Shown piece by piece: positions 32,614-34,126 of a stretch of 42,083 bases of DNA. The translations under genes were made by a program, and so were the position numbers. The first letter of the stretch is position 1, and each line of letters begins with the position of its first letter. The notes below the pieces were generated by a model. It was not told the DNA's origin, ran no database searches, and was given only the letters and a program-made list of their open reading frames with translations. Source of the stretch: Chloroflexota bacterium (lineage in GTDB: Bacteria > Chloroflexota > Ktedonobacteria > Ktedonobacterales > Ktedonobacteraceae); contig CADDZH010000040.1 in NCBI GenBank assembly GCA_902812455.1, positions 1 to 42,083 of the forward strand, written 5' to 3'.

Positions 32614-32997
32614 TTAACGATGATTATAAAATTCGAGGCTCCAGCGCCATTCCTGGTGGGCTGGATCATTCCACCATTTTTGCAGGGTGCCCGCTTCTCC
32701 ACCAGCCACGATGACCAGAGTGCCAAAATCGGCTGTAGTTGGCCAGATGTCTTCGCGCGTGATCTTGTTTCCCTGGCGACGCAAACGGGCCATCGGCGTA
32801 TCGGCCGTGCGCGATAAATTCTCGCCTTTTGCTACGACCATGCCTGCGCTGTTGCGAACCTCGACATTCAGTTTCTCCGGCGCGGCATGAACGAGCAGGA
32901 CATCCGTTGGGTCGAGGCGACTGCGCGCAAATGAGATACCAGTTGCTCCAACATCAGCGATCCAGAGATCCCATATTTCTTGTTCGTTTGCGGGCAT
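32614..32997 (-). CDS. Unknown 127-residue protein, operon partner of the ClpC-NTD regulator
   Basis: I do not recognise the family. The start is ATG at 32995-32997 (MPANEQEIWDLWIADVGATG), preceded by GAGGG; the longer open frame overlaps the upstream gene and is ignored. The sequence looks like a compact, beta-rich soluble protein with a Trp-rich end (LQKWWNDPAHQEWRWSLEFY). No signal peptide or membrane segment is seen. It begins 22 bases after the HTH/ClpC-NTD gene on the same strand, so the two are probably co-transcribed and may work together. Confidence 0.75.
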   Translation of the reverse strand: MPANEQEIWDLWIADVGATGISFARSRLDPTDVLLVHAAPEKLNVEVRNSAGMVVAKGENLSRTADTPMARLRRQGNKITREDIWPTTADFGTLVIVAGGEAGTLQKWWNDPAHQEWRWSLEFYNHR

Positions 32998-33019: not shown

Positions 33020-33922
33020 CTACGCCAACTGCTTTCCACAGTTGAAACAGTAATGGAAGTAGGCCGGATTCGCTGCTCCGCAATAGCTGCATATCTGCCC
33101 CTGCTCGCCTTCTTTGAGCAGAGAAGAGGCTTCGGGTGGTACCGGAGGTATGACTCCCAAATTGGGCTCTTGCTCCTGATCGTTTTCACGCTCCTGACCT
33201 TGCCCCTGAACTTGACTGAGCACCTGCGTAGTCGCAATACGTACCTGCTCCAGTCTGACTCCCAGGCTTGCCAGCACACCTGCGGCGACGCCTTCTCCTT
33301 CACGGACCAGTCCTAGCAAGAGATGCTCCGTGCCAATATAATGATGGTTCATCCTGCGGGCTTCATCCATTGACAGTTCGATCACTTTCTTCGACCTCGG
33401 CGTCAGGCCCACCGGACCAACCACAATTCGATCGCCACGCCCTATGATATGTTCGATGCTACTGCGAACCTTGTCTAGCTCAACACCAAGATTTGTCAGA
33501 ACTTTGGCCGCGACACCTTCTTTCTCACGTATGAGGCCAAGCAGAAGATGCTCAGTACCAATATAATTGTGCTGGAAACTCCTGGCCTCCTCCTGCGCCA
33601 GTGATAAAACTTTACGCGCCCGCCCTGTGAACTTGTCAAATCTATCGCTCGCAACAAATTCCACCGGGGAAACTCGTTTTCCTTGCAGCATCTTGCGCAC
33701 CCATTGTGCAGGGTCTCCTGGAGCCCTAGCAGGCTGTTCTTCCATGCCAGCGCCAGAAACACGCTGTTGTTGGAGATACTGGTCAATATCGGCTTTCGTG
33801 AAACGATATTCACCGCCGACGCGATAGGCAGAGAGTTCGCCGCGATTGACGAGGCGGCGTACTGTGACGACATCGACTTTCAGGTATTCAGCCACTTCTT
33901 CTGTTGTGAGCAAAGGTTCCAT
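33020..33922 (-). CDS. HTH - two ClpC N-terminal domains - zinc ribbon protein
   Basis: A 300-residue three-part protein. Residues 1-52 are an excisionase/MerR-type DNA-binding helix-turn-helix (LLTTEEVAEYLKVDVVTVRR). Residues 95-160 and 172-236 are two Clp N-domain repeats, each with IGTEHLLLGL. Residues 278-295 form a zinc ribbon (CSYC, CFNC). There is no AAA+ ATPase. In ClpC the Glu of each GTEH motif binds phospho-arginine; both are kept (Glu124, Glu199). A DNA-binding protein with a substrate-recognition module suggests a proteostasis-sensing regulator; this is inference. TAAGGAGG precedes the ATG. Confidence 0.88.
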   Translation of the reverse strand: MEPLLTTEEVAEYLKVDVVTVRRLVNRGELSAYRVGGEYRFTKADIDQYLQQQRVSGAGMEEQPARAPGDPAQWVRKMLQGKRVSPVEFVASDRFDKFTGRARKVLSLAQEEARSFQHNYIGTEHLLLGLIREKEGVAAKVLTNLGVELDKVRSSIEHIIGRGDRIVVGPVGLTPRSKKVIELSMDEARRMNHHYIGTEHLLLGLVREGEGVAAGVLASLGVRLEQVRIATTQVLSQVQGQGQERENDQEQEPNLGVIPPVPPEASSLLKEGEQGQICSYCGAANPAYFHYCFNCGKQLA

Positions 33923-33941: not shown

Positions 33942-33987
33942 AGTATACATTACTATACGGTACTATACAGAATTTAACATTACTATA
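33942..33987 (-). promoter_or_regulatory. Helically phased TACTATA array at the ClpC-NTD gene promoter
   Basis: TACTATA occurs on the plus strand at 33951, 33961 and 33981, so the spacings are 10 and 20 bases, one and two helical turns. On the minus strand a -10-like TATACT lies at plus 33942-33947, with only a poor -35 (CTGTAT at 17 bases). The array overlaps this promoter, 20-65 bases before the start of the HTH gene. It is a candidate operator for autoregulation. Confidence 0.55.
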
Positions 33988-34126
33988 TAGTACATGTCAA
34001 TACTTATTTCTTACAACTATTGCCGAACGCCTCCTGGATATGGTTTAATTGAAGTAGAGATTGCATTGGCTACGGGACGCTAGTATGCAGCGATCCACAT
34101 GTTTGCAGAATTGAAAGGGAAATAGT

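Follow-up and report, generated by a model that had tools for sequence, protein, structure and literature searches.

Introduction

The closest known counterpart of the system considered here is mycobacterial ClpC2, an ATPase-less autorepressor with the N-terminal domain (NTD) of ClpC, which has been shown experimentally to be released, and its synthesis induced, by cyclomarin A (PMC10030653). ClpC2 serves as a sponge for cyclomarin A, a toxin of ClpC1. It has an N-terminal four-helix dimerization domain that bears no homology to ClpC1, its DNA contact maps to the Clp_N domain, and its operator is a palindrome (CGTCAAC-N5-GTTGACG) at its own start (PMC10030653). Two other systems are relevant. 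BldC, a protein of 68 residues with no sensor, forms cooperative multimers that bind direct repeats in head-to-tail order (PMC5859096). In conflict systems, vWA proteins with fused Clp_N repeats have also been reported (PMC7159879). Here we discuss a protein of 300 amino acids (aa) encoded in a 42,083-nt stretch of DNA (the window; contig CADDZH010000040.1) from a member of the Ktedonobacteraceae in the phylum Chloroflexota. In this protein an excisionase/BldC-like helix-turn-helix (HTH) is joined to a double Clp_N domain.

We consider the chances about even that the protein is a ClpC2-like, ligand-released autoregulator that acts as a decoy. Given the conservation of repeats at the promoter, the ranking of each gene's own site and the finding that the top matches are own promoters, the most probable reading is an autoregulator whose level goes up once Clp_N is occupied. 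The original prediction, made from the letters of the window, had envisaged a regulator of a kind not described before; in outline, mycobacterial ClpC2 already works this way (PMC10030653).

An HTH Joined to a Double Clp_N Domain

The HTH of the window protein matches PF12728 far above the gathering score (66.5 vs. 27 bits), and the same family was matched in 20 of 20 members of set A1 (E ≤ 0.001). It is excisionase/BldC-like: the MerR_1 and MerR models stay under their cut-offs (15.4 vs. 21.6 and 12.2 vs. 28.2 bits), as does the NCBIfam BldC model NF033787 (31.1 vs. 77 bits). None of the 13 Pfam families listed for the 300 aa is an AAA+ module. The C-terminal ribbon scores below the cut-off of Zn_Ribbon_1 (20.3 vs. 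25 bits), yet the four Cys are present; in the family, 61 of 120 members retain the Cys columns, and the remainder are gapped there. In the predicted structure, residues 1–50 have a predicted local distance difference test (pLDDT) score of 89–95 in blocks of ten, and the linkers are of low confidence. Residues 97–239 of the model align on residues 5–146 of the 5hbn chain, which maps Glu124 and Glu199 to positions 32 and 106 of Bacillus subtilis ClpC. The matches of the structure search were taken up by the Clp_N domain, and the HTH fold was barely probed. The Pfam scan thus bears out the predicted architecture of an HTH, two Clp_N repeats and a C-terminal Cys4 ribbon with no ATPase. The coordinates and residue numbers of the prediction were also correct, and its strand, left unstated, is minus. 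From the domain architecture, a DNA-binding regulator that carries the substrate-reading domains of ClpC without the ATPase is likely, as had been proposed.

The linkage of the two domains is a family trait. A search with residues 1–95 of the window protein, with candidates restricted to 0.55–1.75 times the query length, found 244 proteins, and all of the best 120 carry both PF12728 and PF02861, as would be expected from the original prediction. HTH-only proteins of less than about 165 aa could not be listed in this search.

Repeats over the Promoters of the Family

The repeat units upstream of the window gene have a single orientation and a 10-bp phase (Table 1). One unit falls within the spacer of a sigma-70-like promoter and two just downstream of its −10. 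By a leave-one-out profile, this operator candidate ranks first of 84,068 window positions, and the two-unit repeat pattern, with up to three mismatches allowed, was found nowhere else in the 42 kb window.

Of the 26 genes whose upstream regions were read, 20 have such repeats (consensus TATAGTAATG, mostly at 10 bp spacing) across the promoter region. These are all of the main-clade genes, including a distant member from Anaerolineaceae; it should be noted that the division into clades was made after reading. The six regions outside the main clade belong to a short clade (L018, L033, L035, L037) and to L034 and L019, in which the frame is short or the start uncertain. The short clade is also distinct by length and by lack of the ribbon; ribbonless L016 was nevertheless kept in the main clade. 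L020, L036 and L038, which are HTH-only or interrupted frames, are not among the 26, and for L025, where the called start was too far upstream, the scored stretch was shifted 40 bp downstream.

In 19 of the 20 main-clade regions, that of the window included, the best pair of units 10 bp apart outscores 98% or more of 500 dinucleotide shuffles. The exception (L017, 7%) has units spaced by 20 and for this spacing was omitted from the operator alignment, which used the other 19 regions. Between some units of L013, L024 and L031 the spacing is 9 rather than 10. When near-copies were grouped by hand, the 20 regions made 15 groups plus L017, and in profiles that leave one group out, the own site ranks first in all 16 loci (2.7 to 42 kb), a rank that tolerates a same-strand displacement of as much as 60 bp (the offset is 0 in 13 of the 16). 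Some bias is left in this test because the sites, within about 150 bp upstream, were chosen with the window decamer, and leaving one out drops the site, not the choice. For 11 of the 20 genes, the −10 of the top promoter-like match upstream is TATAGT, with which a repeat unit begins.

The short clade consists of HTH-Clp_N paralogues of 219–227 aa. Its regions reach 0.03 to 0.63 of the shuffles at the pair test and have no clear TATAGTAATG array; a weak match to the operator profile precedes L035 (E 0.78). By eye, this clade may use another operator with ATGCTA-like repeats.

Table 1. Features of the window at and around the regulator gene.
Feature	Positions	Strand	Remarks
HTH_17-Clp_N-Clp_N-zinc ribbon protein, 300 aa	33020..33922	-	open reading frame with ATG start
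HTH_17 / excisionase-type winged HTH, residues 4–54	33761..33913	-	Pfam PF12728, E 2.5e-18; TIGR01764, E 4.3e-17
Double Clp_N domain, residues 95–237	33212..33640	-	Pfam, two stretches, E 5.1e-39; Glu124 and Glu199 in GTEH motifs
C-terminal four-Cys ribbon, residues 278–299	33026..33091	-	Zn_Ribbon_1, E 4.7e-4, below curated cut-off
Operator candidate, phased direct repeats TATAGTAATG / TATAGTACCG / TATAGTAATG	33948..33987	-	at −65, −45 and −35 from start codon
Sigma-70-like promoter TTGACA-18-TAAATT	33971..34000	-	consensus scan, 2 sites in region vs. 0.7 in shuffles
DUF7712 protein	32614..32997	-	start 22 bp past regulator stop

Search for Other Targets

In 47 genomes of the class of Ktedonobacter racemifer, the 18 best matches of the operator profile (E ≤ 0.005) are all own promoters of the family. 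Seventeen are training sites, and the L017/L008 copy, which is outside the training set, was also recovered. A 17-mer with up to two mismatches found 45 sites in the same genomes (10 own, 35 other), and its reversed control found 45 as well. At the stringency used, neither search of the 47 genomes gave a signal over background beyond the own promoters, the other sites not having been inspected singly. A global regulon was therefore set aside at this stringency, and the expectation that gene expression would follow proteolytic load is not supported. As no regulon was found beyond the gene itself, the switch seems to raise the protein itself, in the window perhaps together with the DUF7712 protein encoded next to it.

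Distribution and Likeness to ClpC

Family members are from organisms named Ktedonobacteraceae, Ktedonobacterales, Chloroflexi and, once, a Roseiflexaceae metagenome-assembled genome (MAG). Two peptide patterns run against genome contigs located 10 loci, one in an Anaerolineaceae MAG and nine in Ktedonobacteria; among the nine are the isolates K. racemifer, K. robiniae, Ktedonobacter sp. SOSP1-85 and Ktedonospora formicarum. Of the 47 genomes from the class of K. racemifer, 21 match at E ≤ 1e-15, the fusion being demonstrated in at most 19 of them, as two (G021 and G025) have short open frames of 97 and 67 aa. A search of 400 genomes of the phylum, which scored up to 11 candidates per genome, matched the identical 21 genomes. 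The Anaerolineaceae genome matches at 1e-20 but is absent from the 400-genome matches, its membership in that sample being uncertain. No paper on an HTH_17-Clp_N fusion was found by title or abstract start in the open-access literature, which was partly surveyed; we do not claim absence from print.

Clp_N repeats are also found outside the fusion. At least 119 proteins have them with neither an HTH_17 nor an AAA+ family (119 of the best 120 of 7452 Clp_N matches), and Clp_N is matched 18 to 21 times in each of three Ktedonobacter-type genomes, frames of ClpC and ClpB size included.

Over its Clp_N region, the window protein shares 83% identity with the NTD of K. racemifer ClpC. In this comparison, a gap filter removed the HTH rows of G034 and of the second copy of G003, as well as the ClpC of G037. 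The ClpC NTDs themselves are strictly conserved, 11 others being 99–100% identical to that of K. racemifer. A potential partner is present in most of the gene-bearing genomes searched: of 17 (out of 21), 15 have a clear ClpC (at least 89% identity) and 16 have a match at E ≤ 1e-150, so the check for clpC suggested with the original prediction came out in its favor. A tree of Clp_N domains, in which the HTH rows needed six changes and 30 of 51 inner branches are open, does not resolve if the fusion arose once.

The Pocket Glu Residues

As had been predicted, both pocket residues are kept: in the alignment, Glu124 is present in 120 of 120 family members and Glu199 in 119 of 120. Glu occupies the equivalent columns almost as strictly in the 119 Clp_N-only proteins (281 of 286 and 274 of 291 domains), so its conservation is a general feature of Clp_N and does not single out phospho-arginine binding. 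The phospho-arginine pockets of resting ClpC reportedly also contact the ring (PMC12583610), a role that would be impossible for a protein with no ATPase.

The kinase that should accompany phospho-arginine reading was sought through PF00217, the ATP:guanido phosphotransferase family to which the catalytic part of McsB belongs. It was found in none of the 47 genomes of the class and none of the 400 of the phylum, and 14 control genomes were also without a match, so that the search had no positive control and is suggestive only. McsB-type kinases are likely absent from the Chloroflexota genomes searched. This only weakens the case for phospho-arginine because arginine phosphorylation has been reported in Mycobacterium smegmatis without a known McsB homologue (PMC9604228). 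On both grounds we have set aside phospho-arginine reading as the main function.

Proposed Mechanism and Alternatives

In the mechanism that we infer, the HTH would bind the promoter of its own gene, probably as a row of monomers arranged head to tail on the direct repeats of about 10 bp. The bound row would span the promoter and thereby repress the gene. The double Clp_N domain would be the sensor, in the window protein a close copy of the domain with which the ClpC of the host reads its substrates. Once Clp_N is occupied by a ligand of the ClpC NTD, which could be an adaptor, a peptide that targets ClpC, or a client that is unfolded or marked, the row would dissociate and the gene be induced. 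The output would be more of the same protein, which would titrate the ligand away from ClpC.

Several observations weigh against this scheme or limit its reach. ClpC2 contacts DNA through Clp_N and not through an HTH, so its mechanism of release need not carry over. Across the family, HTH-Clp_N domains range from 36 to 85% identity to the K. racemifer ClpC NTD (22 domains); since the sensors vary this widely while the ClpC NTDs are near-identical, strict mimicry of ClpC is not general. The count of good units (at least 8 of 10 positions) beats 95% of shuffles in only 10 of the 20 regions. A stricter flag, that the repeat core lies inside the −10 region, holds in nine of the 20 and not in the window, and has no shuffle control; two of the 20 upstream regions have no promoter match at all. 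Weak targets could have been missed because the 17-mer cut kept 10 of the 18 own sites in the 47 genomes. The best match that is not an own promoter (G036:C2:1326657, E 0.013, with one mismatch at 1326671) is a possible further target. Finally, activation in place of repression is compatible with the same data as the alternative sign.

The repeats themselves could be bound by another regulator, or be a mere feature of AT-rich promoters, with the protein acting elsewhere. That the protein binds them is a prediction, the promoter is indeed AT-rich, and the decamer that served to pick the sites had itself been noticed first in the window. We regard this account as improbable, because the own site outscores all other places in each of the 16 loci, diverged members keep the spacing at mostly 10 bp, and the top sites in the 47 genomes are promoters of the HTH_17-Clp_N family itself. 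The same confinement of detected sites to own promoters argues against a sensor of damaged or arginine-phosphorylated proteins that would tie a stress regulon to proteolytic load. Such a sensor is unlikely also for the reasons given above, the near-equal retention of Glu in Clp_N-only proteins and the silence of the kinase search in the 47 and 400 genomes, which had no positive control.

An operator detected at the own promoter alone would also suit an autoregulated anchor or adaptor, in which Clp_N binds partners of ClpC and is not a sensor, and DNA binding keeps the level constant by negative feedback. The ribbon and the low-confidence linkers could serve interactions of this kind, and many HTH-less Clp_N proteins are present in the same bacterial group. 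Plain feedback would not need the HTH and Clp_N in one chain, however, as they are in the best 120 family matches, and we consider an anchor or adaptor doubtful, if worth keeping in mind. The type of the HTH (TIGR01764) and the annotation of many relatives as "excisionase family DNA binding protein" could suggest a recombination directionality factor of a mobile element. With no integrase among six neighboring proteins scanned (DUF7712, a phosphodiesterase, Fur, a cytidylyltransferase-like protein, one without family and RsgA), and with a Clp_N pair and an own-promoter array that are conserved, such a role is hardly credible.

Gene Neighborhood

The DUF7712 gene is possibly co-transcribed with the regulator in the window organism; no match to it lies beside the gene in nine other loci. 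No window neighbor is common to any of the nine loci compared (out of 10, L007 being left out). Beyond the regulator itself, the sole resemblance of these loci to the window genes is at 27–28%, to a dehydrogenase that is encoded away from the regulator, and on this comparison of the nine loci with the window a conserved operon partner was rejected. By eye, L005, L006 and L008 have neighbors in common, as do L002 and L003.

Comparison with Known Systems

More tentatively, we suggest as possible rather than probable that a target-mimic autorepressor, in which a copy of the ligand-reading domain of ClpC is combined with a BldC-type HTH, arose in Chloroflexota separately from actinobacterial ClpC2. 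Anything that engages the ClpC NTD, whether toxin, adaptor or client, would free the head-to-tail row and flood the cell with decoys. If so, switches made from a decoy copy of the very target that a drug or client engages would be a recurrent bacterial strategy. The window protein would offer, from a distant phylum, a second way to build a ClpC2-like regulator from ClpC domains without the ATPase, one in which the parts for DNA binding and for sensing are cleanly separate within one chain. The releasing ligand would show whether ClpC in these soil bacteria is engaged by peptides, by adaptors or by damaged proteins. The conserved operator candidate makes the idea of autoregulation directly testable.

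The window protein resembles each of the known systems in part. It differs from the NTD of ClpC in being without AAA+ modules and joined to a DNA-binding domain. With BldC and other excisionase-type HTH_17 proteins it has in common a winged HTH of the same type, and by analogy the direct repeats of about 10 bp fit head-to-tail binding, but it carries a putative Clp_N sensor. The vWA-Clp_N conflict proteins likewise have Clp_N repeats without the Clp ATPase, fused to another domain; in the passage that describes them, neither an HTH nor a role in transcription is mentioned (PMC7159879). Like the ClpC2 of mycobacteria and other actinobacteria, the window protein has a double Clp_N without AAA+. 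It has an HTH_17 instead of the four-helix dimerization domain, a row of direct repeats upstream instead of a palindrome, and a putative sensor that is nearer to ClpC (about 170 bits to ClpC1 vs. 54–81 bits to ClpC2). The window has two matches to a ClpC2-type palindrome at two to three mismatches (3885 and 27885), neither of them near the gene, the chance expectation being 1.25. Membership in the ClpC2 family was rejected on these grounds. Thus, although autoregulation by an ATPase-less ClpC NTD is itself already known, the HTH and the operator candidate both set the window protein apart from ClpC2.
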